A DNA stretch of 55,090 nucleotides from Acidobacteriota bacterium. Lineage in GTDB: Bacteria > Acidobacteriota > Terriglobia > Bryobacterales > Bryobacteraceae. Position numbers and translations under genes: made by a program. The notes under the pieces were generated by a model, which did not search any database, was not told the origin of the DNA, and saw only the letters and a program-made list of their open reading frames with translations. Shown here piece after piece: positions 27,385-42,155 of the stretch (the first letter of the stretch is position 1; every line of letters starts with the position of its first letter). Where the stretch lies: assembly GCA_025353165.1 (NCBI GenBank), contig JANXRE010000123.1, forward strand, positions 1-55,090, written 5' to 3'.

Positions 27385-27387
27385 TGC

Positions 27388-28518
27388 TCAGGCCCGCTCG
27401 CAAACCGCGTAGGCGCGCTCCGGCGCGGCCGTGATTCGCGGCTCGCCGGTCTCGTGCGCCGGAGCGTGTATCGGGACGCGCCGGCTTCTGAGCTTCATTC
27501 CGGAGCGGCCCGCGAGCACGGCCTGAATCTCGGAAACGATGGAGAGGGCGATCGCCTCGGGGGTCTCCGCGCCGATGTCCAGACCAACCGGCGCATGCAC
27601 ATGGTCCGCTCCGGGACTGACTCCGATTTCCTCGAACAGGCGCTCGGTGCGTCTTTTCGGCCCGAGCAGCCCCAGGTAGCGGGGCCGGGCCGGAAGGATC
27701 CCTTGCAGAAGCTTGCCGTCCCCCGGGTAGTTGTGGGTCATTAGGACGACGCAAGTTTCGCGATCGATCTCGATGCCGGCCAGCGGATTTCCGGAATCGG
27801 TCAGCACAACCCGATCCGCGAGGGGGAAGCGCTCCACTCGCGCATAGGCGGGTCTTCCATCGGCGACCGTAACGTGCCAGCCGAGTTCCTTGGCGATGCG
27901 CGCCACGGGAATCGCGTCGTGTCCCGCGCCGAAGATCACCAGAGCGGGCGGAGGTCCGATGTATTCCACGAACACTTCGGAATCGTCGAGATGGACCAGG
28001 CGGCTTCTACGCTCGTGCAAGGCCGCCAGCGCGTGCGGCCGCAGGTCGTCACAAGCGGCAGTCGCAGGGAAAAAGAGATGGTCCCCCACCCGAGCCGCGG
28101 AGCCTTCGCGCACCCGAATGACCGTCGCCATCACGGCCGGCTTGCGGCACGCGCGGCAGGAGTCGAGTAATTCCATCGCCTCCCTGGCGGATTCGGTTTC
28201 CAGCCGCTCCAGCAGCACCTGAATCACGCCGCTGCAGCCCAGGCCGAACTCCCAGACGGCGTCTTCCTCCGAACTGGTGTCGTAAACTCGCACGACTGGC
28301 CGGCCCTCGGTGAACCACCAAGCTTTTTTCGCGACGTCGCCCTCCAGGCACCCGCCGCTGACGGAGCCGATCCGGCGGCCATCCGGCAGAATCAGCATGC
28401 GCGCACCCGGACGCCGGTACGCGGAGCCCTTCACGTGCACCACCGTGGCCAGCACCGCGTCCCGATTGGAATGCTCCAGGGTTCGCCAGGCGTCCAGAAT
28501 GGCGTGGAGGTCGTGCAT
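27388..28518 (-). CDS. xdhC: XdhC/CoxI-family molybdenum cofactor insertion factor
   Basis: 376 residues. The N-terminal XdhC_CoxI domain is marked by AYRRPGARMLILPDGRRIGS and VSGGCLEGDV, and GLGCSGVIQVLLERL near 105. The C-terminal Rossmann domain has PALVIFGAGHDAIPVARIA near 210 and MTHNYPGDGKLLQGIL near 280. XdhC proteins bind sulfurated Moco and hand it to xanthine-dehydrogenase-type apoenzymes. ATG at 28518 (MHDLHAIL) is chosen; it lies 5 nt after iorB. The open frame reaching further upstream is a shadow of iorB. Confidence 0.93.
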   Translation of the reverse strand: MHDLHAILDAWRTLEHSNRDAVLATVVHVKGSAYRRPGARMLILPDGRRIGSVSGGCLEGDVAKKAWWFTEGRPVVRVYDTSSEEDAVWEFGLGCSGVIQVLLERLETESAREAMELLDSCRACRKPAVMATVIRVREGSAARVGDHLFFPATAACDDLRPHALAALHERRSRLVHLDDSEVFVEYIGPPPALVIFGAGHDAIPVARIAKELGWHVTVADGRPAYARVERFPLADRVVLTDSGNPLAGIEIDRETCVVLMTHNYPGDGKLLQGILPARPRYLGLLGPKRRTERLFEEIGVSPGADHVHAPVGLDIGAETPEAIALSIVSEIQAVLAGRSGMKLRSRRVPIHAPAHETGEPRITAAPERAYAVCERA

Positions 28519-28523
28519 GGGCC

Positions 28524-30761
28524 TTAGAGTCCGCCCATGACGGCGCCGGGGAAGAACGGCAGCGAGCGCACCCGGGTCCCGGTCAGCTTCGCGTAAGCGT
28601 TGGCCAGCGCGGGGGCGCATGGCGGCACGGCCGGTTCGCCGATTCCGCTGGGGGTACCCGAGCTGGTCACGAGTTGCACGGTGATTTGAGGCATCTCGCC
28701 GATTCGCATCACCCGATAGTTGCTGAAGTTGCTCTGATTGGCCTTTCCGGCGGTGAAGGTCATTTGACCCCAGAGCGCCGCGTTGAGGCCATGGGCGATA
28801 CCGCCCTGCATCTGCGCCTGGACGGAGTCGGGGTTGATCGCCATCCCGCAATCCACCACGCACGCAACGCGATTGACCTGCAGGGAACCCTTGGCAAGCT
28901 GCGAGACATCCATAACCTCGCAGACCCAGGTTCCGAACGACTGCGAGATCGCGACCCCCCAGGCGTGTCCCTTCGGCAGCGAGTGCCTCCAGGAGCTGAG
29001 CGCGTCGGCGGCGGTCAGCACCGCGCGCGCCCGGGGGTCGGTCAGGGCGTTGTACCGGAAGGTGAACGGGTCGATTCCGGCGGCCAGCGCCAGTTCGTCG
29101 ATCATGCTCTCGACCACAAAGGCATTAATCGAGTTTCCGACCGACCGCCAGAAGCCCACGGGAATGCCTGCCGGCAGCGGCACCCATTCTACGACGTGCG
29201 TGCCCAGCGCGTAACCCAGGCCTACAGCGCCGTCGGGCCCCGAAGAATCGAGATCGCCAGGATTGATCCATCCGCGCTGCAGCAGAATGGAAGGAGAAAC
29301 ATTTCGATAGAACCAGGCGACGATATTTCCGGAGGCATCCAGTCCGCCGGTGGCGTGCACCAGGGCAAAGGGCCGGTACTGGTCGTGGGCGATGTCCTCT
29401 TCGCGAAACCACGTCAGCTTCACCGGTTTCTTCACGGCCATGGCCACCTGGACCGCCTGGCTGATGTAGTCCTGCTCGATCTTGCGGCCCAGGCCACCGC
29501 CTAGAAAAGTGGTGTGGACCGTGACCAGGTTGGGATTCACGCCTGTGATGGCGGAGGCGGTGCCCGCGACCCATGCGGCGGCCTGGCTGGGCGCCCAAAC
29601 CTCGCAACTCGAGGCGGTGCCGTTGGTGAAGGTGATGTTGACCGAGCAGTTCATCACTTCCATCGTGGAGTGCGCCAGGTAGGGGAGCGTGTAAGTGGCG
29701 TCCACTGTCTTTTTCGCGCCGGCCATCGCGCTGGCGACCTGAGCCTCGATCACGGCCGCCGGCGGCGTCGGGTTGTTCGGCTCGGCGACAATCGGCGTGC
29801 CGGTGGTGACAAGTTGCTGGGCCAGAGCCAGGATTTGGGCGCTGTCGATATTGGCGCTCGACGGCGGCAGATTCCACTTCAGCGATAGCCCCTTGACCAG
29901 ATTCCTTGCGGTCCAGGTATCGGTGGCCACCACGGCAACCGCGTTGACGCTTCCTGCCGCGACGACGCCGCGGCTGTCCGACGCGGTACAAGGCACTACC
30001 GCGATGGCTCCCGGCGGCTTCACGGGAGTGCTCGCGAGCGTGCCGCCGATCGTCGGGCAATGCACGACACTGGCGAAGACCATTCCCGGAATGCGGACAT
30101 CGATACCGTAGATCGCGCTGCCGTCGGTCTTCGACGGAATGTCGACGCGCTGCACGGGCTGGCCAATCAGGCGGAACTTACTGGGGTCCGTGAGCGGGAT
30201 GTTCGCAGGGACTGGCTGCGAGGCCGCCAGGACTGCCAGGGACCCGTAAGTCCAGGTCGCGATCGCGTGGGTGGTCGGATTGGTATAGGTGACCACGGCG
30301 CTGGCGGCCGAGTAATTGGCGCGCTTCGAGTCGCGCTGGAGGACCATCGCGGCGGCGATCAGCAACTCGCGGACGGTTGCTCCGGCCAGCCGGAGGGGTG
30401 CGTAACCATTGCTCACGGCGCTGCTGCCGCCCGTGATGTAGGAGACGACGGGGTCGACCAGCGCCTGCTGGACCGAGATCTGGCTCCAGTCCACCATCAA
30501 TTCTTCGGCTAGGATCTGGGCCAGCCCGGACATTGCGCCTTGTCCCATTTCGGCCCCGCCGAACGCGAGGGCGATGCTCCCGTCGGTGCCAACGCGGACG
30601 TAGGCGTTCAACTGTTCATAAATCGGCGAGGCGGCCTGCATGACGCGGTTCGCGGGCGGCATGAAGAATCCGAGCGAGAGTCCTCCGGCGGCGGTGGCGA
30701 GGAATCCTCGGCGGCCGATTTCCATCTTCTGGGCGGGTGCTTGGGGAGATTGAGGTGTCAT
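28524..30761 (-). CDS. iorB: Molybdenum hydroxylase large subunit, isoquinoline 1-oxidoreductase type (IorB-like)
   Basis: 745 residues. A TAT leader, EIGRRGFLATAAGGLSLGFF, indicates export of the folded holoenzyme. Moco-binding blocks follow: AFGGAEMGQGAMSGLAQIL near 75, TTFLGGGLGRKIEQDY near 415, PVGFWRSVGNSINAFVVES near 540, and GIGEPAVPPCAPALANA near 715 with the catalytic Glu of the xanthine oxidase family. The partner small subunit iorA lies upstream and no FAD subunit is present, so electrons probably leave via a cytochrome or quinone rather than NAD. Substrate is unknown; aldehydes or N-heterocycles are typical. Start ATG 30761; longer frames upstream are shadows of iorA. Confidence 0.92.
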   Translation of the reverse strand: MTPQSPQAPAQKMEIGRRGFLATAAGGLSLGFFMPPANRVMQAASPIYEQLNAYVRVGTDGSIALAFGGAEMGQGAMSGLAQILAEELMVDWSQISVQQALVDPVVSYITGGSSAVSNGYAPLRLAGATVRELLIAAAMVLQRDSKRANYSAASAVVTYTNPTTHAIATWTYGSLAVLAASQPVPANIPLTDPSKFRLIGQPVQRVDIPSKTDGSAIYGIDVRIPGMVFASVVHCPTIGGTLASTPVKPPGAIAVVPCTASDSRGVVAAGSVNAVAVVATDTWTARNLVKGLSLKWNLPPSSANIDSAQILALAQQLVTTGTPIVAEPNNPTPPAAVIEAQVASAMAGAKKTVDATYTLPYLAHSTMEVMNCSVNITFTNGTASSCEVWAPSQAAAWVAGTASAITGVNPNLVTVHTTFLGGGLGRKIEQDYISQAVQVAMAVKKPVKLTWFREEDIAHDQYRPFALVHATGGLDASGNIVAWFYRNVSPSILLQRGWINPGDLDSSGPDGAVGLGYALGTHVVEWVPLPAGIPVGFWRSVGNSINAFVVESMIDELALAAGIDPFTFRYNALTDPRARAVLTAADALSSWRHSLPKGHAWGVAISQSFGTWVCEVMDVSQLAKGSLQVNRVACVVDCGMAINPDSVQAQMQGGIAHGLNAALWGQMTFTAGKANQSNFSNYRVMRIGEMPQITVQLVTSSGTPSGIGEPAVPPCAPALANAYAKLTGTRVRSLPFFPGAVMGGL

Positions 30762-30775
30762 GTGATTGTTCCGTT

Positions 30776-31213
30776 CTACAGATTGCTCACCGCGTCCCGA
30801 ATGCGCTGGTAGGTTCCGCACACGCAGATGTGCTGAACCTCGGGCAGGATCTCCGGCCCGTGATGGCCGGCCATCATGGCCGCGGCGCATGCCATGATCA
30901 TCCCTGGCTGGCAGTAACCGCATTGCGGAACCTGGTGGGCGATCCAGGCCTGCTGGACTGGATGGCTCCGATTCGCGGAAAGGCCCTCGATGGTGATGAT
31001 CTTCTTGCCGACGGCGGACGTCACGTCGAAGACGCAGGAGTGCTCCCGCTGGCCGTCGATGATCACGGTGCAAGCGCCGCATACCTCGATGCCGCAGCCG
31101 TACTTGGTGCCGGTTAGCCCGATCAGGTCGCGCAGCACCCATAAAAGCGGCATGCTGCCGTCGCTGACTGTGACGGAATGGTTCTGACCATTCACATTCA
31201 GTGTAAGTTGCAT
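30776..31213 (-). CDS. iorA: Molybdenum hydroxylase small 2Fe-2S subunit (IorA-like)
   Basis: 145 residues, a standard length. The plant-type ferredoxin cluster ligands are Cys40, 45, 48 and 60 (GCGIEVCGACTV, then HSC); the C-terminal four-helix [2Fe-2S] domain has CGYC (98-101) and CVC (130-132) in QCGYCQPGMIMACA and HICVCGTYQRI. It relays electrons from the Moco site of IorB. It has no TAT signal of its own and would be co-exported with IorB. It is the first gene of iorA-iorB-xdhC-mocA and starts 111 nt after the subtilisin-like gene on the same strand. Confidence 0.95.
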   Translation of the reverse strand: MQLTLNVNGQNHSVTVSDGSMPLLWVLRDLIGLTGTKYGCGIEVCGACTVIIDGQREHSCVFDVTSAVGKKIITIEGLSANRSHPVQQAWIAHQVPQCGYCQPGMIMACAAAMMAGHHGPEILPEVQHICVCGTYQRIRDAVSNL

Positions 31214-31324: not shown

Positions 31325-32668
31325 CTACCGGTCGTTCCCGGCCGCGACGCTGGCGAAGACATCCAGGCGGCTCTGTCCGAGACCGAGCGACTCCGGCAGG
31401 GGGTGCCCGCTCTCCAGCGCATCCACGGCCAGGCCGATTCCCATCCGGCCGGTTGGCTGCGATAGCAGAGCGACCGTGCCCGACACCAGGGCGGTGCTGA
31501 ACGACGTGCCCCAGACGGCCACGTAGTTGTTCCCGGGGTAGGTGGTGATCAGCGCTTCTCCAGGGGCGGCCATGAAGATGCTCGGCATTCCGTAGTTGCT
31601 GAAAGCACTGCGGCCGTCGGTTGTGGTGGTGGAGCTAACCCCGATCACTTGCGGGAAACCGGCAGGGTAAGTCAACTCCTGTTGGCCTTCGTTCCCGGAC
31701 GCAGCCACGCAGATTGCGCCCTTGGACTGCGCATACGCGATCGCCTTCTGCAGGTCGGGCGAGGCGGTCTCCGTGTCGAAGCTCATGGAGATCACGGTTG
31801 CTCCATTATCCGCGGCATAGTAAATAGCGTGAATGATGTCCGACAAGTTGGCCGAACCGTCCGATTTGAAGGCCTTCAACGGCATGATCTTCGCGGTTGG
31901 AGCCACCAGGTGGATCAACCCCGAGACCATTGTCCCGTGGCCGAAATCGGATGGCAGAGTGCCGTTCCCGTCCAGGATCACAACCGTGGATTGGTCCAGA
32001 ATCACGACCGTCGATTGCTGGAGCAATACCTGGGTTTTCTGGGAAGGGGGGACCGTCGACGATTGCGTCAACGCATTCGCGGAAGCCGCGCTGAGGTCCA
32101 GTAGCTCGTTCGGAGTGCCTGCCTGATTCCGGGTGAAATCGTATCCGGTCACCAGCGCGCCCGACAAGGCCGGGTGGGCCGGGTCCACGCCCGTGTCGAT
32201 TACCGCCACAATCGGGACTTTAGAAGTTGGGGGGACCGTGCTCAGGCCGAGGCGAATCAGAGATGCGGCCGACTGATTCACGTAGATATTGCGAACCGTC
32301 GCGCCAGCGAACGGGACGGTACTCGTGTCGCTCAGAATCGATTGAATGGCCCCCAGGTCGATCTGAACCTTGGAAGCCGGCTCTACCTCCGACGACTCCA
32401 TGGTGGCGTTTGTCTCGAAGGCAGTGACGGTCGGATCGGCCGCGATTTGCGCGAGGGTTGGGGGGGGTAAACTGGCGGGAGCTGTGACAAGATAAACGCC
32501 ACCGGAGGAGTTCAGGTCGTCGACGACGGTCAACCCGTATTTGGCCGTGACCGCGTTCAAATTCGTCGCCGACGTCCCAAGAATGTATTGCGTTTGCGCC
32601 ACGGCCGGCGTGACCCACAGTAGTACGAGAATCAGGCCAAGGTACAAATTGAATATGCTCTTGTTCAC
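31325..32668 (-). CDS. Secreted subtilisin-like (S8) protease with tandem octapeptide insert
   Basis: 447 residues. A signal peptide (MNKSIFNLYLGLILVLLWVTP) and a prodomain-like region (about 26-150) precede an S8 catalytic domain: Asp158 (VAVIDTGVD), His244 (DFGHGTMVSG), oxyanion Asn326 (ASGNEG) and Ser389 (GTSFSTALVSG). Between Asp and His, residues 218-233 are two perfect copies of QSTVVILD, an insert not found in standard subtilisins that would form paired beta-strands in a surface loop. It lies 15 nt after the zinc-finger gene and ends the sigma-CHAT module. No sorting anchor is visible at the C-terminus. Protease call is firm; substrate and role are unknown. Confidence 0.93.
   Translation of the reverse strand: MNKSIFNLYLGLILVLLWVTPAVAQTQYILGTSATNLNAVTAKYGLTVVDDLNSSGGVYLVTAPASLPPPTLAQIAADPTVTAFETNATMESSEVEPASKVQIDLGAIQSILSDTSTVPFAGATVRNIYVNQSAASLIRLGLSTVPPTSKVPIVAVIDTGVDPAHPALSGALVTGYDFTRNQAGTPNELLDLSAASANALTQSSTVPPSQKTQVLLQQSTVVILDQSTVVILDGNGTLPSDFGHGTMVSGLIHLVAPTAKIMPLKAFKSDGSANLSDIIHAIYYAADNGATVISMSFDTETASPDLQKAIAYAQSKGAICVAASGNEGQQELTYPAGFPQVIGVSSTTTTDGRSAFSNYGMPSIFMAAPGEALITTYPGNNYVAVWGTSFSTALVSGTVALLSQPTGRMGIGLAVDALESGHPLPESLGLGQSRLDVFASVAAGNDR
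31970..32017 (-). repeat. In-frame 24-bp tandem duplication in the S8 protease gene
   Basis: Two adjacent 24-bp units (31970-31993 and 31994-32017) differ at three bases, all silent: both encode QSTVVILD. Synonymous-only divergence suggests the peptide sequence is under selection. Confidence 0.85.
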
Positions 32669-32683
32669 GTTTGTCTCCTCTTC

Positions 32684-33307
32684 TCAGGCATAGCCGGATT
32701 CCAGCCGGCTCAGGGCGACTTCTATTTGCGTACCGTTGTGCTCCAGCGGGATACAAAGGCGCAGCTTGGTGCGCTGGCGGTACTCCAGGCAGAACTCTCC
32801 GAAATCGTTGGTCACGGCTTGCGCAAGCACTTTGCCGCTGCCCAGCAACAGTACCGGAAGACCGTCGACCCGGTTCGTTTCGGGCTTGTCGCAAGCAAAC
32901 TGGCCGACCAGGGTTACTTGCGAATTGCTGCGGTCCATCTGCAGTTCCAGACGATAGCTCCCGGCCTGCAGGGCCAATTGGCGGCTGGCCGGTTGCCCGC
33001 TTCTCGCCCCTTCGTGTTGCAGATCGGCAAAACTGTCGTAGGTCAGAGTCGCCAGGATGCGGTCCAGCAGCCGGGGCCTCTCGGGGATTCGGGAAGCGGG
33101 AATGGAAGCCACGGCGGCGACCAGATCGGCCGGAGGGCTGTACAGCGCATCGGCTGCGGCGACTTCGCGAACCTGCTGGAGCATTTGCTGCACGGGACGG
33201 CAATCCGGGCATTCGCTGGCCAGGTGGCTGGCCATCTCGTCCCGCTGGGCGGCGGCCAAAGTGCCCAAAACGAAATCGGCCCACTCGGTGATGTCGAAAT
33301 GCTTCAT
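32684..33307 (-). CDS. Zinc-finger anti-sigma-like protein
   Basis: 207 residues, no membrane span. The N-terminus ITEWADFVLGTLAAAQRDEM with HLASECPDC is the HxxxCxxC zinc-binding helix pair of zf-HC2/anti-sigma proteins. The C-terminal half (about 120-205) is beta-rich with GLPVLLLGSGKVLAQAVTN and DFGEFCLEY, resembling carboxypeptidase-regulatory-like/transthyretin modules. It sits 94 nt after the CHAT gene and 15 nt before the S8 protease gene. It is probably the cytoplasmic anti-sigma or adaptor for the ECF factor encoded at the head of the cluster. A weak TTGACT at 33351-33356 (minus) could give it its own promoter. Confidence 0.75.
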   Translation of the reverse strand: MKHFDITEWADFVLGTLAAAQRDEMASHLASECPDCRPVQQMLQQVREVAAADALYSPPADLVAAVASIPASRIPERPRLLDRILATLTYDSFADLQHEGARSGQPASRQLALQAGSYRLELQMDRSNSQVTLVGQFACDKPETNRVDGLPVLLLGSGKVLAQAVTNDFGEFCLEYRQRTKLRLCIPLEHNGTQIEVALSRLESGYA

Positions 33308-33401
33308 TTAATCTATCCGCCAGCGAAATCCCATTGCTTCGTCTGTAATGAGTCAAAGAACCGCTCGGGAAATATACCCTTCGGGAAAAAAACTTGCGCC
33401 G

Positions 33402-36254
33402 TTACGACATGTGATTCCCGACAAGCACGAAAGGCGCCCAGAAATAAGGATGTCCGTACTGCTCACGGATAGCCTGTGCCGCGGTACGAACCGCCTCTGC
33501 CTTGCTCGCGCCACCACAAAGTGTACGATAAAACACTATCATGAAGTCGGCCGTACTCCGGTCGAACACGTCCCACAGGCTTACGAGAACGCTGCCAGCG
33601 CCGGCCGACAGCAGGCCGCGCATGAGACCGAACAGCTCATCCCCGCCCACCACCACGTTAAGCCCGGTGCTGCAGCCGCTCAGCGTCACAAGTTCCGCGT
33701 CTAGTGGCAACTGATAGAGATCGAAGAGGCTTAGGTGGCCGTCGCCGAGCCGTATGGAGGAAAACATCGGGTTGTCGATTCGAAAAACGCCGTGGGTCGC
33801 GATGTGAATATACCGGCTGCCGCAACCCGATTCCCGGAGCAGCCGCCGCGTGGCGTTCTCGCCGAGATACAGCGTCGCGTCGGGCAGGGTCGAGGCGACG
33901 GTACGCGCCTCTTCTTCGATATGAGGCGTCCGGGCGTCGGGAACGCCGAGCACCAGCGACTGGCCGGTAACCGAGGGCCTCCGGGAGCGGCATAGAGCAT
34001 ACACGCTGGCGCTCGGGGTGTACGATACCGTGAAGTCGTCGATCAGATAGCGGGCGCCGTCGTAGAGCGCATGAAATGGGAGGTGGTGGAGAAGACCGTG
34101 CGGCGACACGATCAGATGGTCCGCCTGGAGCAGACGCCGCACGGGCGCGATGAGCTTGTCGTACAGTTCCCGCAGATGGGAGTCGGTGGCTTCCTTCCAG
34201 GCTTCGCCGACGCGCTTGTCATGCGCCGGCACGAACCGGAATCGCCCTAGTTGAAACTGCAGCAGCCGCAAGGCGCGGCGGACGCTCGCTATGTTGGCCA
34301 GTTGCGCCATCTCCAGACGGTCCCGCCCCACTAGGCAGACGTGGAGCACGCCGCAGATTTGAAAATACTCGAGCAGAATCGCGCCGGGGGGAATCGAATC
34401 GCGAATCCTGTCCAGGCTGAGGCAGGTCTCGCCGAGGAATACCGCGGCTTCCGGATCCGCCGAGCGGAGGCGGGCCACGCTCTGCAGCAGTTCGACCTCG
34501 CGCTCGCGGGCCTGTCCGCGCAGATTCTCAACCGCCCGCGGGCTGACGGAGCCTTTTCGCAGCGCCGCCAAGTCCAGTTGCTTGTAGTGCCAGTCGAGTT
34601 CCCGGCGAAGCTCCTGAATCCGGCCGGCCGGCGATTCGCCCCGAGGCTCCCCGGATTCGGCGTCGGCTGGGAAAGCCATCAGATCGGCGAGCTTACGGGA
34701 CTTGGCCTCTTCGATATAGCGAAACGACTCCTCGATAGCCTGGGACTCGGGCAGCCGTTCCAGGCACAGACGCACCAGGTTCTCGTAAATTGCGAGCTTG
34801 TCTTTCAGAAAGGAGACCTGCACCTGCTCGCTCCGCAACTGGCTGAGCAGGTTTTCCGTCTGGGTGCGGGCGGTCTGAAGGGCCTGGTAGGCGGCTTCGA
34901 GGTTGCCGAAGCTCTCCTCGATCCGGGCCAGCACGGCGTAGGCGTGAAACAGAAGATGCCTCGATTCCGCGCGCCTCAGCCGGCCAATGGCGGAAAGGCA
35001 GGTGGCGCGCGCCTTGTCGAGCTGGCCCGAGTCGCGCAGCATTTGGGCGAGAAGCAGTTCGCACAGCGCCGCTTTTGCCGGCAGCAGCGAATCCGCGAGC
35101 GACTTGTTGGCTTTCAAAGCCAAACGCCAGGCCTGCCGTTCCTGTCCGAGGTCGTGGGAGATCAGCGCCAGGTACAGATCGATCACCGCGGGCCAAAGCT
35201 CGTTGGATTCTGAAACGAAGAGCCTGCGCGCCTCGCGCAGCAGCCGGACGGCCTTGCGCGCATCGCCGCGGTGGCTGCAGGCCACGGCCATGTTCATCAC
35301 GGCCTTGGCGCGCTCATACGTCATGCCGAGCTCTTTGAATTTCCGGGCCGCCAGACCGGCCAGCCGCTCGCCCTCTTCACTGAAGTTGAGCTCCAGGTAC
35401 ATCTCCGACTCGTCGAGGTCGCACAGCGCCTCATGGTAGGCGTCGCCGGTCTGCTGGCAGTGGACGCGGCTTTTCTGGAATAAGTCGATCGCCTTCAGGT
35501 AGTCGGCGCGCAGGTAGTACAGGTACGCGATGTTGTAGTCCGCGTCGGCGGTCAGGACATCGAGGCCGTGCGCGAGGCAATGTTCGCGCGCGGTGCGGTA
35601 GGTATCGAGCGCGCGGGGGAAGTTGCCCAGGCTTGTATAGCACACCGCCATGTTACTCAGGACGGCCGCGATGTCGCGCGCGTCGCCGAGGCTGCGCAGC
35701 CGCTTGTACGCCTGCGCGTAATTCTCAATCGCCTCCTGGTAGCGGTCCTGGCGGTACAGGATATTGCCGACATTGCTGGTGAGCCGGGCCAGGCGCAGTT
35801 CGTCGTGGTGGCGCTCGTAGATTTCGCGGGCCCGGCTCGCCCAGGTGAACGCCTCATCGTAGCGGCCGAGATAGATCAGCACTTGAAGACCGGTGGCGAG
35901 GGTCCGGCCCACTTCCAGGTCCTCTCCGGCCGCCTCCAGGAGTTCGAGCGCCTCCGCGTAGTTCGCGAACGCAGCCTCGTGTTTCGAGCGCGCGAACAGA
36001 AGGTGGCCGGTCGAGCGGAGGGCGAACGCGCGGGCGATGGGGTCGCCCAGTTCTCCGGCGAGCCAGTGCGCGGACTCGGCCAGCCGCTCGCCCTTCTCCA
36101 GATCGACGTACGCCAGCTTCAGCACTTCGGAATAGAGAAGCTTTACTCCTTCGACCGAGTTCAGCTCCGCGCTGCCCGCCAGGATTTCGCGGCGTTCCCG
36201 TTCCGAGGCTGTGTTCGCCACCTTCTCGACGAGCGAATCGGGGCTGGCGGGCAA
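33402..36254 (-). CDS. TPR-repeat CHAT (caspase-like) protease
   Basis: 950 residues. About 15 TPR-like helical repeats span 30-480 (e.g. NILYRQDRYQEAIENYAQAY, MAVCYTSLGNFPRALDTY), a coiled helical linker follows (about 490-640), then a CHAT domain from about 690 to the end. The caspase-fold dyad is visible: His821 in HIATHGVFR and Cys861 in LSGCSTG, followed by GGDELFGLMRGLLSAGAGSVL and the terminal PYFWAPFVLVG. No signal peptide, so it is cytoplasmic. The TTG start at 36254 has GGGAG 6 nt upstream and begins 1 nt after the sigma factor stop; the longer frame is a shadow of that gene. Probably a regulated protease acting on a partner such as the zinc-finger protein. Confidence 0.9.
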   Translation of the reverse strand: MPASPDSLVEKVANTASERERREILAGSAELNSVEGVKLLYSEVLKLAYVDLEKGERLAESAHWLAGELGDPIARAFALRSTGHLLFARSKHEAAFANYAEALELLEAAGEDLEVGRTLATGLQVLIYLGRYDEAFTWASRAREIYERHHDELRLARLTSNVGNILYRQDRYQEAIENYAQAYKRLRSLGDARDIAAVLSNMAVCYTSLGNFPRALDTYRTAREHCLAHGLDVLTADADYNIAYLYYLRADYLKAIDLFQKSRVHCQQTGDAYHEALCDLDESEMYLELNFSEEGERLAGLAARKFKELGMTYERAKAVMNMAVACSHRGDARKAVRLLREARRLFVSESNELWPAVIDLYLALISHDLGQERQAWRLALKANKSLADSLLPAKAALCELLLAQMLRDSGQLDKARATCLSAIGRLRRAESRHLLFHAYAVLARIEESFGNLEAAYQALQTARTQTENLLSQLRSEQVQVSFLKDKLAIYENLVRLCLERLPESQAIEESFRYIEEAKSRKLADLMAFPADAESGEPRGESPAGRIQELRRELDWHYKQLDLAALRKGSVSPRAVENLRGQAREREVELLQSVARLRSADPEAAVFLGETCLSLDRIRDSIPPGAILLEYFQICGVLHVCLVGRDRLEMAQLANIASVRRALRLLQFQLGRFRFVPAHDKRVGEAWKEATDSHLRELYDKLIAPVRRLLQADHLIVSPHGLLHHLPFHALYDGARYLIDDFTVSYTPSASVYALCRSRRPSVTGQSLVLGVPDARTPHIEEEARTVASTLPDATLYLGENATRRLLRESGCGSRYIHIATHGVFRIDNPMFSSIRLGDGHLSLFDLYQLPLDAELVTLSGCSTGLNVVVGGDELFGLMRGLLSAGAGSVLVSLWDVFDRSTADFMIVFYRTLCGGASKAEAVRTAAQAIREQYGHPYFWAPFVLVGNHMS

Positions 36255-36255
36255 C

Positions 36256-36855
36256 CTATACTCCCCGGTCTTCCAGATTTCGCCGGAGCTTCTGCAGGCA
36301 GCGGCCGCGAATGAACCCGATGGAGCCCTCGGCAAGACCGAGGCGCTGGGCGACTTCACTGTACGGCAGGGGCGGATCGCTGTAGAACAGCAGGCGCACC
36401 ATCGTCTGGCAGCGATCGGGCAGGTTCTGAATGGCTTCCCGCACCACCTGCTCGCGCTCCATCGCCTCCTGGAAAGTCGCGGTTCCGGACCCGCCGGCCA
36501 GGGTCTCGATGTCGAACTCCGGATCCGCGGGCTCACCCCACTTCCGCTGGTTTTTCTTCATGCGATAGCACTGATTGGAAGCGACGGTCATCAACCAGGA
36601 GCGCACCGCGCCGGGTCGCCGCAGTTTACTGAGCTCGTTGTACAGTTCGGTCCACACCGACTGAAAAACATCCGCTGCGTCCTCCGGGCTCATCCGGTAC
36701 TTCACCGGGACCGAGTAAACCAGATTCTTGTACTTCGAGACCAGCGCGGTCCAGGCCTGCTGGTTACCGGAGAGGCATTCCGCAATGAGATCTTCGTCGC
36801 TCCACGCGGGCGTCGGGGAATGACCGAACGCGATCTCCTGCAGCTTGGCTTTCAT
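36256..36855 (-). CDS. ECF-type RNA polymerase sigma factor
   Basis: 199 residues. Region 2 spans about 25-95 (LIAECLSGNQQAWTALVSKY, DAADVFQSVWTELYNEL, RSWLMTVASNQCYR) and region 4 about 140-190 (REAIQNLPDRCQTMVRLLFY, YSEVAQRLGLAEGSIGFIRG). It lacks regions 1.1 and 3, as expected for group 4. It heads the minus-strand run sigma-CHAT-zinc finger-S8 and ends 1 nt before the CHAT start, so the sigma factor and protease are made together. ATG 36855 is the only reasonable start. Confidence 0.92.
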   Translation of the reverse strand: MKAKLQEIAFGHSPTPAWSDEDLIAECLSGNQQAWTALVSKYKNLVYSVPVKYRMSPEDAADVFQSVWTELYNELSKLRRPGAVRSWLMTVASNQCYRMKKNQRKWGEPADPEFDIETLAGGSGTATFQEAMEREQVVREAIQNLPDRCQTMVRLLFYSDPPLPYSEVAQRLGLAEGSIGFIRGRCLQKLRRNLEDRGV

Positions 36856-36866
36856 TGAATCGAGGG

Positions 36867-36891
36867 GCTTAGTTATCGAGGCTTAGTTATC
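36867..36891. repeat. Short direct repeat at the 3' end of the transporter gene
   Basis: GCTTAGTTATC occurs at 36867-36877 and 36881-36891. The second copy contains the stop codon (TAA on minus) of the solute-binding gene; the first lies just before the sigma factor start. It looks like a small tandem duplication. Confidence 0.5.
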
Positions 36892-38580
36892 CCTGTGGAA
36901 TAACTCCTCGACGTTCCAGAGCGTGTAATCCGCCATCGCCGCTGGAGCAAAACCGCCGACCCACTTCCGGGCCGCCACCACGACGTGCGGACTCGCGAGA
37001 AAAACCATCGGCACATTTTCGGCGATCAACTGCTGGACCCGGTCCCACTGTTGTTTGCGTTCCTTGATCCTTATCGCGCTCATTTGAGCGCGCATTAACC
37101 GGTCGATCTCCCCTTCCCAGGGAGTGGACGGCTGCTTCTGGCCCGGGTTCCAGACGTGCATGCCCCCGCTGGACAGCCATACGTTCATCTCGCTGTTGGG
37201 GTCGGCATCGCCGCCGCCCAAACCCATGATGGCGGCATCGAACTGGCGGGTGTTCAGGACGCGGTCCACCAGCGATCGGAATTCGAGAGATGCCACCTGG
37301 ACCTTCATGCCCAGTTGTTTCAAGTCGTATTGCACGATCGTGGCCATCTGAACACGTTCTGTATTGCTAGACGCAACGATGATCGAAAATTCGACAGGCT
37401 TCCCGGTTCGATCGCGCAAAGTCTTCCCCGAGTCCCACGTAAAGCCGGCCGATGCCAGAAGATCCCGCGCTTGCGACAAAGACCGCACGGGAATCGGGAT
37501 GTTGGAATTCGACCATTGCCGGTTTCCGGCGCTGACATTGCCCCACATGGGTGCGCCACGACCCCCATAAACGAGGCGGACGATGGAATCGCGATCCACG
37601 GCCATCGACACCGCTTTCCGAAAGGCCGTCTGCTGGAACCAGGTTGGTTTCACGGCCGGACTGAGGTTAAAAACAAGGAAGTTGTACTCCAGGCTGGGGC
37701 CCGCGTCCGAAACGATATCTCCCCGCGACGCCTGCCCAGCGGCAAGTTGCGGGAACATCCTAGGGCTGACCCGGTTGAGGATATCGGTTTCGCCCGCGGC
37801 GAACCGCGTCACCTGGGCGTCCTCCGAGCCGACAAACAGAAAGGTGAGCTCGTCGAAATACGGCAGCCGCTGCCGCGAGCCGTCCTCCTGCCAGTAATAT
37901 GGATTACGTTCCAGCACGAGACGTTCTCCCGGCTGGTACTGCTTTAAGCGAAACGGACCCAATCCGGCGATCCCATCCGCCGGCGTGTTGAGCCGCCATA
38001 CCTCGGCCAGTTTGCCCTCCCGAAAGGGCTTCTCAAGTATATGGCGGGGCAGCATCGGAAGACCGTCGAAGATGCGTTCGGCCGCGGCATACGGCGCGGG
38101 CAGTTCGATAAGGACCGTGTAAGCGTCGAGCTTTCGCGCGGTAAGCGGATGGCCGTCGACGATCAGGAGGTCGCGCTGCGGCGAGTGCGTCTTCTCATCC
38201 AGAAAAGCTTCTAGAGTGAAGACGACATCATCGGCGTCGAACGCGTGCCCGTCGGAAAAACGCAAGCCGCGGCGAAGGTGCAGCGTGTACCGGCGCCCAT
38301 CCGGGGAAACCGTCCACGATTTCGCCAGCGCAGGCTGAGTCAGTTGGGTCTGACGATGGATCGAGATCAGGTCCGCGTGCATCCGGCCGATCACGTCGCG
38401 CGAGGGAAGGTCCATCGCGATCAGCGGATTCAGAGTCTTTGGTTCGGCGCGCAATGCGACCGTAAGCCGGCCATCGCGGCGGCCTTTGGCGCTATGCGAA
38501 ACAAGCAGTTCCTCGCCGGGACACAGTGCCACAAATAACGCGCCGGACAGCGCGCACAAGACACCCGATTTTACCCTCAC
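36883..38580 (-). CDS. Peptide ABC transporter substrate-binding protein (SBP family 5)
   Basis: 565 residues. A hydrophobic leader (MRVKSGVLCALSGALFVALCPG) may be a signal or lipoprotein signal. The SBP_bac_5 fold follows: LTVALRAEPKTLNPLIAMD near 40, LAKSWTVSPDGRRYTLHLRRG near 87, FSDGHAFDADDVVFTLEAF near 110 and GLGPFRLKQYQPGERLVLERN near 215. Such proteins deliver di- or oligopeptides (sometimes other solutes) to Dpp/Opp importers. GTG start at 38580. It is the last gene of the operon, 28 nt after the second permease gene, an unusual position because the binding protein usually leads. Confidence 0.9.
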   Translation of the reverse strand: MRVKSGVLCALSGALFVALCPGEELLVSHSAKGRRDGRLTVALRAEPKTLNPLIAMDLPSRDVIGRMHADLISIHRQTQLTQPALAKSWTVSPDGRRYTLHLRRGLRFSDGHAFDADDVVFTLEAFLDEKTHSPQRDLLIVDGHPLTARKLDAYTVLIELPAPYAAAERIFDGLPMLPRHILEKPFREGKLAEVWRLNTPADGIAGLGPFRLKQYQPGERLVLERNPYYWQEDGSRQRLPYFDELTFLFVGSEDAQVTRFAAGETDILNRVSPRMFPQLAAGQASRGDIVSDAGPSLEYNFLVFNLSPAVKPTWFQQTAFRKAVSMAVDRDSIVRLVYGGRGAPMWGNVSAGNRQWSNSNIPIPVRSLSQARDLLASAGFTWDSGKTLRDRTGKPVEFSIIVASSNTERVQMATIVQYDLKQLGMKVQVASLEFRSLVDRVLNTRQFDAAIMGLGGGDADPNSEMNVWLSSGGMHVWNPGQKQPSTPWEGEIDRLMRAQMSAIRIKERKQQWDRVQQLIAENVPMVFLASPHVVVAARKWVGGFAPAAMADYTLWNVEELFHRDN

Positions 38581-38608
38581 TCAACGGCCACTTTACCACA
38601 GGGTTGTG

Positions 38609-39535
38609 TTAGCGGTCGCTCGGGCTGGTACTAATCGCGGCGTAGTAACACATCACCACCGGCAGGAGCGCGAAAGCAGGCATCGCCAGCCACCAGTGAG
38701 AGGTAAGCATCCCTGCCTCTCTCAGGGGCGCCAGCATACCGCCCCAACTCGGAGCCGGCTCTCCCACTCCCAGGCCGAGAAACGACAGGGTCACTTCCGC
38801 CAGGATGTACTGTGGAATCAGCAGCGTAGCCTGGGTCAGGGCGGCTGAGCGCAGATCGGGCAGAATATGCCACGAGAATATATGCAAGCTGGAAGCCCCG
38901 AACCCGCGCGCCGCATAGACATACTCTCTCTCCTTCGCGCTGAGCACGATGCCGCGAAACAGGCGGGCCGGCCGGGCCCAACCGACCACTCCGATCACGG
39001 CGATGGTCAGCAGAAACGTGCGGACCGGATCCAAAGACAGGGGAAGAAAAGCGCGCACGCCCAGCAGCAGATAGAGCCAGGGCAATGCCAGGAATACTTC
39101 CGCGAGCCGCATCAGGACGGTATCGCGCCATCCGCCGTAGAAGCCCGCGACGGAACCTAGAATCAAGCCGGCCAGCAGCGTCAGAAGGGTTGCCAGCAGC
39201 CCTGCGCCCAGCGATACCCGGCCTCCGTGGAGGATTCTTGAAAACTGATCCCGTCCGAACGCGTCGGTCCCCAGCAGAAAAACATGGCCCGGCTCCTCCA
39301 CCTGGAACAGCTTTCCGTTCACGAGGACCTGCAGAGGATACATGCGACCGGCGCTGAACACGAACGGGCGCAGGTGGAAATTCCCGCCAGAGTCGAAAAA
39401 GTGGACGGCCATGGGCGGCTCAAACGGGTAGTCGCGGTGCTGTTCCGCGGGATCGTACGGCGAAATGAAACCGGCCAGCGCCACCGCCAGGTGAATCGCG
39501 GCGAGCGTCAGCGCCACCAGCCATAGGCGGGTCAA
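38609..39535 (-). CDS. Peptide ABC transporter permease (DppC/OppC-like)
   Basis: 308 residues. It has an N-terminal membrane span, an extended periplasmic loop (about 25-85), then the BPD transport core with five or so spans. GTDAFGRDQFSRILHGGRVS near 93 is the OppC-type signature, and the EAA loop is visible as EREYVYAARGFGASSLHIFSW near 205. The start is TTG at 39535, directly after the stop of the partner permease gene. It pairs with the DppB-like subunit. Confidence 0.9.
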   Translation of the reverse strand: MTRLWLVALTLAAIHLAVALAGFISPYDPAEQHRDYPFEPPMAVHFFDSGGNFHLRPFVFSAGRMYPLQVLVNGKLFQVEEPGHVFLLGTDAFGRDQFSRILHGGRVSLGAGLLATLLTLLAGLILGSVAGFYGGWRDTVLMRLAEVFLALPWLYLLLGVRAFLPLSLDPVRTFLLTIAVIGVVGWARPARLFRGIVLSAKEREYVYAARGFGASSLHIFSWHILPDLRSAALTQATLLIPQYILAEVTLSFLGLGVGEPAPSWGGMLAPLREAGMLTSHWWLAMPAFALLPVVMCYYAAISTSPSDR

Positions 39536-40441
39536 CTACGCCTCCACCCGGATGCGCGGGTCGCAGGCGTACAGAGCCACGTCCGCCACGAGCGATCCGA
39601 GCATGAGGAAGACGGCCGAAATCACGATGGAGCCTACGATCACAGGTACATCCCGCGCGTACACCGCTTCGAGCAGCAAAGGACCGAGCCCCGGCCATCC
39701 CAGGATCACCTCGACCAGTAGGGAAGCGCTCAGCAAAGTCCCCAGGCTCAGGCCGGCCAGGCTGATCAGCGGATTGGCCGCCGCGGGAAGAACGTAGCGA
39801 AAGACGAGACGGCCTTCGGAAATGCCGTGCGCGCGCGCCGCCACGAGGAACGGGCTGTCCACGACCTCCAGGACGGCGGCGCGGGTGTGCCGGATGACGA
39901 CGGGCATCGACCCGGCCGCCAGCACCAGCGCGGGGAGCGCCAAGTGCCCGCCCGCTGGAAACCAGCCGGTCCGGACGGCCACGATCGACGCCATCACGGC
40001 CATCAGCAATTCCGGAATCGTGAGTGCCGCCGAGGCCGCGAAGCTGAGGATGCGGCCGGGCCATTTTCGTGTGGCCGCCCACCACCCCAAAGGCACTCCG
40101 GCCAGCCACGCCAGCGCCAGCGCCGAGCTGGCCAGCAGCAACGTGTTTCCGGCGCGAGGGGCCAGCAGCGCCGATGCGGGGAGGTTGTATGCCAGCGAAA
40201 CGCCGAGGTCGCCCGCCATTGCCGAACGCAGCCATCGAAGATAGCGAACCGGAAGCGGGCGGTCCAGGCCGTATTCGCCGCGGAGCCCGGCGACGGTTTC
40301 GCTCGAGATCCGCGGGTTCAAGCGCGCGTCGGTGAAGTAATCTCCCGGCGCGAGATCGACCAGCGCGAACGACAGCGCCGAGACGCCGAACAGGAGAAGA
40401 ACCGCGTGCAGGGCGCGCCGCGCGAGATATCGGATCAGCAC
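39536..40441 (-). CDS. Peptide ABC transporter permease (DppB/OppB-like)
   Basis: 301 residues. LIRYLARRALHAVLLLFGVSALSF begins the first membrane span (OppB N-terminal family motif), DYFTDARLNPRISSETVAGL matches the periplasmic element, and SPFLVAARAHGISEGRLVFRYV near 220 is the EAA coupling loop. GTG 40441 is chosen because GGGGGA precedes it by 5-6 nt and it gives the standard N-terminus; ATG 40462 would add seven residues. It overlaps the upstream ATPase gene by 7 nt. Confidence 0.9.
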   Translation of the reverse strand: MLIRYLARRALHAVLLLFGVSALSFALVDLAPGDYFTDARLNPRISSETVAGLRGEYGLDRPLPVRYLRWLRSAMAGDLGVSLAYNLPASALLAPRAGNTLLLASSALALAWLAGVPLGWWAATRKWPGRILSFAASAALTIPELLMAVMASIVAVRTGWFPAGGHLALPALVLAAGSMPVVIRHTRAAVLEVVDSPFLVAARAHGISEGRLVFRYVLPAAANPLISLAGLSLGTLLSASLLVEVILGWPGLGPLLLEAVYARDVPVIVGSIVISAVFLMLGSLVADVALYACDPRIRVEA

Positions 40442-41184
40442 GGAATCCCCCCCGGCGCGCACGCGATCAGGCTCCTCGTGCGCGGATGTTGCGGGCGCTG
40501 GAACAGCTCCACGGGCGGTCCTTCTTCCACGATCCTTCCCTCGTCGATCACGGCGATTCGATCCGCGAAATGGCCGGCGATGCCCAGGTCGTGGGCGATC
40601 AGAATATATGCGAGGCCCAGCCGGTCCTGCAGGTCGAGCAACAGGTTGACCATCTGCGCCTGAACGGGAAGGTCCAGGCTGGCGAGAGATTCATCGAGGA
40701 TGAGTATGCGCGGGTCGCACGCCAGGGCGCGAGCCAGCGCCAGGCGTGAGCGCTGGCCGCCGCTGAACGCCGTTACCTTCGCGCCGCTCGATTCAACCGG
40801 CAGCCCCACCATCGACAGGAGCTCCGGCACGCGGCGGCCCGCGCCGGGCTCGCTCACGACCTGGAGCGCAGTCAGCCGCGGATTGAGGCTTGTGCCCGGA
40901 TCCTGCGGGATTAGCTGGATGGCCCGGCGGTCTTCGCCCGCAAACCAGATGTCGCCGGAATCGGGACGTTCCCGCCCGGCGATGCAGCGCACCAGCGTGG
41001 ATTTCCCCGCGCCCGACGGGCCCACGAATGCCAGCGTCTCGCGCTCGGAGAGATTGAACGAAATGCCGTTTAGAGCGGCCTTCGGGGGACCGCCTGGGGA
41101 GAACCAGCTGCGCTTCGAGTAGGTCTTGGTCAGGTTCGAGACGCGAAGGATGGGCTCGGGGCTTGTCACGAAATCACCAGTCAC
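40435..41184 (-). CDS. Peptide ABC transporter ATP-binding protein (DppF/OppF-like)
   Basis: 249 residues. Walker A GPSGAGKST near 55, Q-loop LIPQDPGTSLNPRLT near 90, signature FSGGQRSRLALARALA near 140 (first residue Phe instead of Leu), Walker B ILILDESLASLD near 158 and H-loop LIAHDLG near 195 are present. It is shorter than usual OppF because the C-terminal oligopeptide domain is almost absent. The GTG start at 41184 overlaps the stop of the companion ATPase gene by 4 nt. Confidence 0.9.
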   Translation of the reverse strand: MTGDFVTSPEPILRVSNLTKTYSKRSWFSPGGPPKAALNGISFNLSERETLAFVGPSGAGKSTLVRCIAGRERPDSGDIWFAGEDRRAIQLIPQDPGTSLNPRLTALQVVSEPGAGRRVPELLSMVGLPVESSGAKVTAFSGGQRSRLALARALACDPRILILDESLASLDLPVQAQMVNLLLDLQDRLGLAYILIAHDLGIAGHFADRIAVIDEGRIVEEGPPVELFQRPQHPRTRSLIACAPGGIPC

Positions 41185-42155
41185 TCACCGCGCCGCACGC
41201 CAAGCGTCGGCAAGAGTGCCGGCGCGGCACGCACGAGTGCGTGCGCCACGTCGACGGGGGCTCGATGTTCATACAGCACGCACTTTACGCGGCGCGATGG
41301 GAACGGCATCGAATCCCGAAGCGGATTTTCGCGGCAGCCGGTTCGCGCGGAGGCGCATCTGGGTGCGAAGGCGCATCCGGCGGGAAGGTTGGCGAACCGC
41401 GGTGGATCGCCGGGTATGGCCGACAGCCGTTTCGTGGCCGCGCCGGGCGCGGGCGGGACGGCTTTCAACAGCGCCTCGGTATACGGGTGCAAAGGCTTTG
41501 ACAACACCTGCTCGACGCCGCCCTCCTCGACGATCTCTCCCGCGTACATGACCAAGATGCGGTCTGCCAGTCCTCGCAGGATGGCCGGGTGATGCGATAT
41601 GAACAGCATGCCGGCCTGCGACTCCGTCTTGAGACCGGCGAACAAGCGCAGGATTTCGGCTTGCGTGATGGTGTCGAGCGAAGCGGTCGGCTCGTCCGCC
41701 ACGATCAGCGATGGCTCGCAAGCAAGCGCCTGCGCAATGCACACGCGCTGCAATTCCCCTCCGCTCATCTGGTGCGGGTAGCTGTTGTACAAGGACTCGT
41801 CCAGCCCGGCCCTGTTCATCAACTCCAGAGTTTTGCTCTTGCGGTTCCGATAATTCTTATGCGCGCGCAGCACCTCCGCGATTTGATCGCCGGCACGGAT
41901 GGTGGGGTGCAGCGCAAGTCTCGGTTCCTGAAAAACGATGCTCCGCGCGCGGCCATGGAAGCGGATGGATCCGGAGACAGCCGATCCCGCGGGCAGCGCC
42001 GCGAGGATCGCGAGCGCGATGGTGCTCTTTCCGCAACCGGATTCCCCCAGCAGCCCGACCACTTCGCCGGGTGCGATCGAGAAACTCACGCCTCGCAGGA
42101 CCGGGACCGGGCGTCCGGGATAGCTCACCCGAAGATCGGATACCTCAAGCAACAC
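41181..42155 (-). CDS. Peptide ABC transporter ATP-binding protein (DppD/OppD-like) with repeat-derived C-terminus
   Basis: 324 residues. Walker A GESGCGKST near 37, Q-loop VFQEPRLALHPTI near 74, signature MSGGELQRVCIAQALA near 130, Walker B LIVADEPTASLD near 148. The C-terminal oligopeptide domain carries the Cys-rich GCAFAPRCASARTGC near 280. After CVLYEHRAPV, the last roughly 20 residues (DVAHALVRAAPALLPTLGVR) are encoded by dispersed repeat A, so the repeat replaced or extended the native tail. GTG start at 42155; TATATA at 42168-42173 (minus) may be the operon -10. First gene of the five-gene importer operon. Confidence 0.9.
   Translation of the reverse strand: MLLEVSDLRVSYPGRPVPVLRGVSFSIAPGEVVGLLGESGCGKSTIALAILAALPAGSAVSGSIRFHGRARSIVFQEPRLALHPTIRAGDQIAEVLRAHKNYRNRKSKTLELMNRAGLDESLYNSYPHQMSGGELQRVCIAQALACEPSLIVADEPTASLDTITQAEILRLFAGLKTESQAGMLFISHHPAILRGLADRILVMYAGEIVEEGGVEQVLSKPLHPYTEALLKAVPPAPGAATKRLSAIPGDPPRFANLPAGCAFAPRCASARTGCRENPLRDSMPFPSRRVKCVLYEHRAPVDVAHALVRAAPALLPTLGVRRGE
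41204..41250 (-). repeat. Dispersed palindromic repeat A, copy 2 (inside a gene)
   Basis: Reverse complement of 25293-25339 with two mismatches in 47 bp; both hairpin stems are kept apart from one mismatched pair. It encodes the C-terminal residues of the DppD-like ATPase and ends 20 nt before the next gene's start. Confidence 0.85.

Follow-up and report, generated by a model that had tools for sequence, protein, structure and literature searches.

A candidate Craspase-like, peptide-responsive proteolytic sigma switch encoded beside a peptide importer in an Acidobacteriota genome

What might a caspase-like protease control when its gene lies between those of a sigma factor and a zinc-finger protein and a secreted subtilase is encoded next in line? 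The question is raised by a locus of an Acidobacteriota bacterium of the family Bryobacteraceae (assembly GCA_025353165.1, contig JANXRE010000123.1), of which positions 1 to 55,090 were analysed and are referred to as the window. The genes for an extracytoplasmic function (ECF) sigma factor, a tetratricopeptide repeat (TPR) protein with a CHAT protease domain, a zinc-finger protein and an S8 subtilase are intact and all lie on the minus strand within 31325-36855, with successive gaps of 1, 94 and 15 nt; in these respects the open reading frames (ORFs) bear out an initial annotation of the locus, which had proposed that the CHAT protease releases the sigma factor from an inhibitor. Based on the analysis described below we tentatively favour a Craspase-like, peptide-responsive proteolytic sigma switch. 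The gene set itself is partly known; new here are the assignment of the third protein as a putative anti-sigma factor, the linkage to a peptide importer and the octapeptide repeats of the subtilase.

The third protein is likely a soluble anti-sigma factor in which a zinc-binding domain of anti-sigma type is joined to a beta-sandwich. The single protein of the window scored 11.4 bits against Pfam zf-HC2, under the cut-off of 22.2; a profile of 48 homologues matched, among PDB sequences, RsiW (2.9e-07, residues 12-80), DdvA (3.1e-05) and 3hug_B (1.7e-04). With RsiW, DdvA and RsrA, which we take to be members of the ZAS family of anti-sigma factors, the protein shares an N-terminal domain with an H-x3/4-C-x2-C motif, the profile match and an adjoining ECF sigma gene, whereas it differs in its fusion to a beta-sandwich, in an invariant linker arginine and in having no transmembrane segment visible by eye. 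The initial annotation had thus correctly recognised a zinc finger of anti-sigma type, but its spacing (HxxxCxxC) has to be amended, the motif of the window being H28-x4-C33-x2-C36. H-x3/4-C-x2-C was found in 43 of the 48 homologues, and Cys33 and Cys36 in 44; the first candidate zinc ligand, His3 of the window protein, corresponds to His in 24/48 and to Cys in 20/48. The C-terminal part matched 4v4c_B (2.9e-06, residues 154-197), NOMO2 (1.7e-04) and weakly SdrD (0.045) and a 'transthyretin-like protein' (0.32), and is read as a transthyretin/Cna-B-like beta-sandwich. The most conserved positions of the protein are Arg102 (85/85 aligned rows, partial frames included), which sits between the two domains, Gly135 (85/85) and Phe172 (84/85), the zinc ligands being less conserved. 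The zinc-finger domain is also weakly matched (E 0.0039) by the N-terminus of a 991-residue 'CHAT domain-containing protein' in PDB entry 8rot (8rot_B; also 8rw5), for which no associated paper was found in the literature search.

A possible counterpart of this linker arginine is Asp898 of the protease. The TPR-CHAT protein matches PF12770 with 221.9 bits (cut-off 24) and TPR_12 at 7.9e-28, carries no signal peptide as judged by eye, and gave PADLOC matches to the models TPR (1e-4), JetA (0.023) and LmuB (0.023). The catalytic residues named by the initial annotation, His821 and Cys861 of the CHAT protein and Asp158, His244 and Ser389 of the subtilase, are present and invariant in 9/9 aligned CHAT and 16/16 aligned S8 proteins, respectively; in an alignment of 79 rows, six of them gapped, His821, Cys861 and Asp898 of the CHAT protein were retained in 73/73 aligned residues. 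Asp898 aligns with the aspartate of the separase motif LWDVTDRD, which presumably lines the pocket for the P1 arginine. The LWDV-x-D motif after the catalytic cysteine is common to the window protein and separase (5fc2/5fby), although their overall similarity is very weak (E 0.083 over a stretch of 63 residues). Since Arg102 of the zinc-finger protein is invariant and Asp898 is separase-like, the two residues together suggest that the CHAT protease may cleave after Arg102; a cut there would leave the beta-sandwich detached from the sigma-binding domain.

A release switch of this kind has a known precedent. According to passages of PMC10028731, Csx29 of type III-E CRISPR systems cleaves Csx30, an inhibitor of CASP-sigma, and the predicted sigma factor of that system. 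The counterparts in the window would be the TPR-CHAT protein, the putative anti-sigma factor, which like Csx30 has a C-terminal domain of its own, and the ECF sigma factor, so that the mechanism proposed by the initial annotation is one already described in kind. In contrast to the Craspase, the window encodes a secreted protease and an importer, and the residue at the Asp898 site is Ser or Pro in the two Csx29/TPR-CHAT chains shown. The Csx29 model matched the CHAT protein of the window with 45.9 bits, below its cut-off of 300, and none of the 12 PDB sequences to which the zinc-finger profile gave a match is a Csx30 chain. No Cas gene was noticed by eye among the flanking ORFs; no CRISPR or Cas search was made.

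In analogy, the soluble zinc-finger protein would hold the sigma factor in the cytoplasm, as its homology to anti-sigma factors implies. Binding of a ligand or partner to the TPR superhelix would switch on the CHAT protease, which would then cut the linker between the sigma-binding domain and the beta-sandwich, most likely after Arg102, and thereby free the sigma factor. The latter would transcribe its targets, probably including its own operon, with the consequence that secreted subtilase and peptide importer would be made.

The substrates of known CHAT proteases are diverse, and a simpler arrangement would have the zinc-finger protein and the sigma factor form a plain binding switch, while the CHAT protease has different targets, such as ones involved in stress or cell death, and the subtilase acts on neighbours. 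We consider this unlikely, as the zinc-finger and CHAT genes stay together through changes of gene order and the catalytic residues of the CHAT protein are invariant.

The sigma factor matches Pfam Sigma70_r2 (2.9e-12) and Sigma70_r4 (6.9e-07), and TIGR02937 with 83 bits (cut-off 42.9). A group of sigma factors with a comparable neighbourhood is ECF54, which reportedly goes back to Casas-Pastor et al. 2021. Passages of a 2022 review (PMC8999054) list CHAT, subtilase and 'carboxypeptidase' proteins in the context of ECF54, report that control by proteolysis was proposed, and state that the group lacks an anti-sigma factor. CHAT and subtilase are thus common to both neighbourhoods, the comparison resting on the neighbourhood description given there, and the statement of the initial annotation that it knew of no described system with exactly this set is not supported. 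From the C-terminal domain of the third protein we infer that it may be the 'carboxypeptidase' protein of the review. Differing from the ECF54 description, the third protein of the window has a domain of anti-sigma type, and those passages of PMC8999054 mention neither a peptide importer nor peptide repeats. Among the matches listed in our search for CHAT together with sigma, anti-sigma or S8, PMC8999054 and PMC10028731 were the only relevant publications, the passages seen of the ECF review PMC8103513 holding nothing useful on CHAT; the matches listed for subtilase with peptide pheromone, TPR or permease mostly concerned Gram-positive peptide signalling. With these terms, no publication of the open-licence literature turned up that describes the S8 repeats, the linkage to an importer or the third protein as an anti-sigma factor.

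The initial annotation had proposed to look for the gene neighbourhood in other genomes, and the gene set is indeed conserved beyond close relatives, though patchily, so that a lack of conservation, named there among the grounds for refutation, does not apply. Matches to the zinc-finger protein at E 0.01 were obtained in 11 of 61 genomes (own, genus, family, order and class), and all four genes are present in the window's own genome (G000) as well as in G001, G005 (two loci), G016, G019 and G057, the module S8 gene of G019 being cut off by a contig end. In a sample of the phylum 129 of 396 genomes matched at 1e-6, many via the zinc finger alone, and 41 at 2.4e-13 or better; the locus context covers 36 of these 41 genomes (G409, G165, G098, G412 and G209 were left out). 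Of 63 loci that could be ordered, 43 encode all four families on a single strand when more than 45 bits per gene and the strand of the zinc-finger gene are required. The orders are shuffled, with sigma-zinc finger-CHAT-S8 in 21 loci, sigma-CHAT-zinc finger-S8 in 12 and others in the rest.

Outside the phylum, the zinc-finger protein matched 16 of 301 Chloroflexota genomes at 1e-10, and five of the 18 loci examined there contain all four families (L182, L183, L187, L188 and L189). At a further locus of a Chloroflexi genome (L164) zinc-finger, CHAT and S8 genes are preceded by an ORF at 7561-8256 that appears sigma-like by eye and has no Pfam match at 0.001; the S8 protein of this locus shows no obvious signal peptide. 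A plasmid search with the zinc-finger protein gave no match, and a search with the sigma protein gave 77 matching records, of which three were examined. The Nonomuraea (actinobacterial) record holds, by profiles, homologues of the CHAT, S8, sigma and zinc-finger genes that are unannotated there, its zinc-finger homologue having no zinc ligands; in the Miltoncostaea record an S8 gene follows the sigma match; the Streptomyces match falls within a biosynthetic cluster that has neither CHAT nor S8 and was rejected. Likewise dismissed were three weakly matching CHAT/TPR paralogues of the window's own genome, as no zinc-finger or S8 gene was found adjoining, and an apparent CHAT-zinc finger fusion in one genome, whose reading frame contains unknown bases. 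Distance matrices computed for the four families from 44 loci are correlated (r 0.63-0.76), and 0/999 permutations were as high; this agrees with co-inheritance and also with a shared species history.

Directly upstream of the sigma gene, at a distance of 27 nt, the five genes of a peptide ABC transporter (binding protein, two permeases and two ATPases) occupy 36883-42155 and are co-directional with it; neighbouring genes either overlap or are no more than 28 nt apart. The co-directional cluster therefore comprises nine genes (42155-31325, minus strand): the four genes delimited by the initial annotation stand, whereas its upstream limit of 36855 does not, and its description left out both the linked importer and the repeat inside the S8 protein. 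The linkage was assessed in 65 loci fetched around zinc-finger matches in relatives and in the phylum sample. Variants that lack CHAT or S8 were counted, while L035-L039, with nothing but a zinc finger, the loci from Chloroflexota and the five genomes without fetched context were left out. A PF00496 gene occurs in the fetched stretch of 22 of these loci, in 20 of 41 genomes, short contigs possibly hiding further importer genes. Because 0.72 loci were expected and two SBP_bac_5 genes were found in the window's own genome, chance is unlikely (Poisson-binomial P about 1e-27 from genome-wide counts, the loci not being independent). In 13 of the 22 linked loci the binding-protein gene shares the strand of the sigma gene, which is also the module gene nearest to it. 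The module-linked binding protein is the only one found in G016 and G019, and both binding proteins of G005 are encoded beside its two modules. In a tree of the 22 linked binding proteins 15 form one group and five another of low support.

Together with the S8 repeats, the importer suggests an input to the switch and not, as formerly assumed, a secreted protease as output alone. The importer would return peptides to the TPR-CHAT sensor, whether products of protein digestion at large or the octapeptide repeated in the subtilase itself, and both features point to peptides as the CHAT trigger, be they foreign (foraging) or self-made (autoinduction).

The S8 protein matches Peptidase_S8 with 122.5 bits (cut-off 21.8), a PADLOC subtilase model at 6.7e-17 and IetS at 3.7e-05; an NCBIfam match to IteS (2e-4) is far under its cut-off. 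Its N-terminus consists of a hydrophobic signal helix, as judged by eye, followed by an I9-like prodomain. Single-sequence structure predictions were poor (pLDDT, predicted local distance difference test, 45.2 and 42.5), and we used the confident part of S8 residues 1-87 alone, a mostly confident region with a helix followed by a beta-alpha-beta-beta-alpha-beta pattern. Between the catalytic Asp and His the protein carries QSTVVILDQSTVVILD. A degenerate QST-type pattern has two matches in the whole own genome, both in this S8 protein, and a control pattern has none; in 14 genomes the pattern has 58 matches (control 0), 53 of them in module S8 proteins, two in a second S8 protein of G019 and three elsewhere (G016, G057 and G316). 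The second S8 protein of G019 (L200, at the end of contig C289) contains QSTVVILD twice and is near-identical to the module S8 protein (186/192 residues); it is a different copy and was rejected as the missing rest of the latter, being a paralogue or else the variant of another strain that entered the assembly.

In relatives the octapeptides are identical within a protein and differ between species: QSTVIILD occurs four times, QSTVAFLD three times or twice, HSSAAVLD three times, QSTAGILE five times, QSTAAILE four times, and one S8 protein has 15 exact copies of QSTGAILD (17 in total, two of them altered). Another S8 lineage carries QISHAFLD, QRSQAFID, QTSQAFID, PRTIVFID and similar octapeptides just ahead of the catalytic domain, and a third has hexapeptides of the SWSIGG type in the same place. 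Codon differences between copies amount to 222 silent and 4 changing in 20 octapeptide S8 proteins without L074, and to 603 silent and 32 changing in L074 alone. The octapeptide copies are kept alike at the protein level and not by recent duplication alone, because the codons differ silently between them. The search for copies started from words whose repetition was already known and allowed up to three mismatches, a procedure that favours likeness, and more decayed copies exist alongside; the same loose count in nine hexapeptide S8 proteins gave 116 silent and 124 changing differences, mostly from chance words.

These repeats could be a self-made signal. The subtilase would then be propeptide and processing enzyme in one, and its octapeptide would be excised, imported and read by the TPR-CHAT protein in an autoinducing manner that follows RRNPP-like logic. 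TPR proteins are known as receptors of reimported peptides in RRNPPA systems, as stated in passages of PMC9765709, and the TPR protein of the window would correspond to them as a possible receptor of a reimported short peptide. In contrast to these systems, no separate small propeptide gene was noted at the window, the candidate peptide lying inside a secreted protease, and the receptor would be a protease instead of a DNA-binding or phosphatase-type protein. The TPR region matches the peptide receptors RapF and RapJ among many other TPR proteins, and the CHAT protein is not a member of Rap, Rgg, NprR, PlcR, PrgX or AimR, its best family matches being CHAT and generic TPR.

The identity of the copies within each protein and their silent codon differences speak for a self-made signal, as do the 15 exact QSTGAILD copies, the near-confinement of the QST-type pattern to module S8 proteins and the short repeats ahead of the catalytic domain in two other lineages. 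Furthermore, octapeptides are associated with importer linkage (both in 14 loci, octapeptide only in 7, importer only in 5, neither in 24; Fisher p 8.8e-4), although the test ignores the relatedness of the loci and overstates the association because they are related; L027 was left out of this octapeptide count and L084, with PRTIVFID twice, was included. A TPR/BTAD regulator, an S8 protein with seven ATGIDG repeats and SBP/permease genes also occur together at L161 (3074-13964), where sigma and CHAT are absent, a possible parallel design that would likewise agree with a peptide loop.

Several results argue the other way. The copies of the window lie inside the catalytic domain, and releasing them would sever the enzyme; no octapeptide or hexapeptide repeat is present at 20 of 50 S8 loci, and the five importer-linked loci above lack octapeptides; the copy search favours likeness as described, and in the hexapeptide proteins it mostly picked up chance words. 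Exact repeats of at least six residues occur in 34 of 53 module S8 proteins and also in 10 of 24 non-module ones (L085_4500_5771 was left out of these counts), by which the repeats as a general mark of module S8 proteins are weakened; repeats alone do not mark the module because non-module S8 proteins carry them too, of other kinds and mostly C-terminal. The 24 controls came from 30 loci of a longer match list, three of which were module S8 proteins and three gave no S8 by profile. Seven of the ten repeat-bearing controls have C-terminal hexapeptides of the WG type; non-module S8 proteins with C-terminal hexapeptides around a WG pair recur at L133, L134, L135, L140, L141, L147 and L155. Weighing these points, it seems unlikely that the subtilase provides the signal itself. 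The same doubt applies to the complete loop, a new kind of peptide signalling in which the subtilase would release a species-specific octapeptide, the ABC importer would return it, the TPR-CHAT receptor would cut the anti-sigma factor after Arg and the ECF sigma factor would re-express the operon; from sequence comparison we would give it little credence.

The same genes could serve a nutrient regulon, in which the subtilase degrades external protein, the importer accepts peptides of any kind, the TPR-CHAT protein senses them and the octapeptides are no more than autoprocessing or recognition elements fitted to the enzyme's own active site. A secreted protease together with an importer of general type would be expected for such a role, repeats just ahead of the catalytic domain in several lineages fit an autocleavage site, and the specificity of one enzyme would keep its own copies alike. 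On the other hand, 15 exact copies in one S8 protein exceed what an autocleavage site needs, and at many loci the sigma, CHAT, zinc-finger and S8 genes are kept together while the fetched stretch contains no importer; we regard this explanation as rather doubtful. It appears highly improbable that the octapeptides stack as beta strands or in an amyloid-like manner to assemble the protease and have to be identical to do so in register: the repeats are hydrophobic and identical within a protein, with beta propensity judged by eye, but long stretches of sequence often separate the copies, and at the equivalent position the third lineage carries hexapeptides of the SWSIGG type.

The proposed switch, whichever peptide would trigger it, has to be weighed against a number of unfavourable observations. 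RsrA was matched by the zinc-finger profile at E 0.14 only. The H..C..C motif is missing in 5 of 48 homologues, and an actinobacterial homologue (L171, 8563-9060) keeps the linker arginine and the beta-sandwich part and lacks the zinc ligands, so that zinc is not essential. Arg102, which is kept in some homologues without a zinc finger, could be structural, and another CHAT protein of the same genome likewise has Asp at the Asp898 site (LWDVND), for which reason Asp898 was discarded as a module-specific mark. The module is patchy in the window's family (5/37 genomes, namely its own and four of 36 others), 12 of the 63 ordered loci have sigma, zinc finger and CHAT without S8 on that strand, and all four families share the same nearest neighbour in just 13 of 44 loci. 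Finally, 43 of the 65 loci have no importer gene in the fetched stretch, and the linked binding proteins of L118 and L122 belong to another clade. The peptide-responsive proteolytic switch remains our tentative choice.

The features of the cluster are compiled in Table 1. The S8 gene is adjoined by a molybdenum-hydroxylase-like group at 26788-31213, named from sequence only, which comprises a MobA-like protein, an XdhC-like protein and a large subunit with a 2Fe-2S small subunit. On contig C187 of the same genome (L159, 2496-5015 and 5881-7659) the other SBP_bac_5 protein adjoins an S8 protein with about eight C-terminal GAAWGT hexapeptides; given this pair and that of the window, both SBP_bac_5 proteins of the genome adjoin a repeat-bearing S8 protein.

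Table 1. Features of the co-directional gene cluster in the window
Feature	Position	Strand	Evidence
Secreted S8 subtilase, 447 aa	31325..32668	-	Pfam Peptidase_S8 2.8e-35
Tandem octapeptide QSTVVILD-QSTVVILD in S8, between catalytic Asp and His	about 31970..32017	-	Repeat and pattern search
Putative soluble anti-sigma factor (zinc-finger protein)	32684..33307	-	Profile of 48 homologues
Arg102 codon of the zinc-finger protein, predicted CHAT cleavage site (P1), interdomain linker	33002..33004	-	Arg in 85/85 aligned homologues; cleavage inferred
TPR-CHAT cysteine protease, 950 aa, TTG start	33402..36254	-	Pfam CHAT 1.6e-65
ECF sigma factor, 199 aa	36256..36855	-	TIGR02937 sigma70-ECF 1.8e-23 and Pfam
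Peptide ABC transporter substrate-binding protein (SBP_bac_5)	36883..38580	-	PF00496 282.5 bits; recurs beside related modules
ABC transporter permease	38609..39535	-	Sequence and neighbourhood; homologues beside binding protein in other module loci
ABC transporter permease	39536..40462	-	Sequence and neighbourhood
ABC transporter ATPase	40435..41184	-	Sequence and neighbourhood
ABC transporter ATPase, first gene of the co-directional cluster	41181..42155	-	Two ATPase matches also beside several other modules

If the core switch is real, the logic known from type III-E CRISPR systems, in which a caspase-like protease cuts an anti-sigma factor, would be that of a chromosomal signalling module across several bacterial phyla, and sigma factors of the ECF54 type might have an unrecognised soluble anti-sigma factor with a predicted cleavage residue. 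Should the peptide loop be true as well, peptide quorum sensing would be extended to other phyla, with a protease as the receptor. Either way, the locus gives rise to precise predictions that concern one peptide, one arginine and one cysteine.

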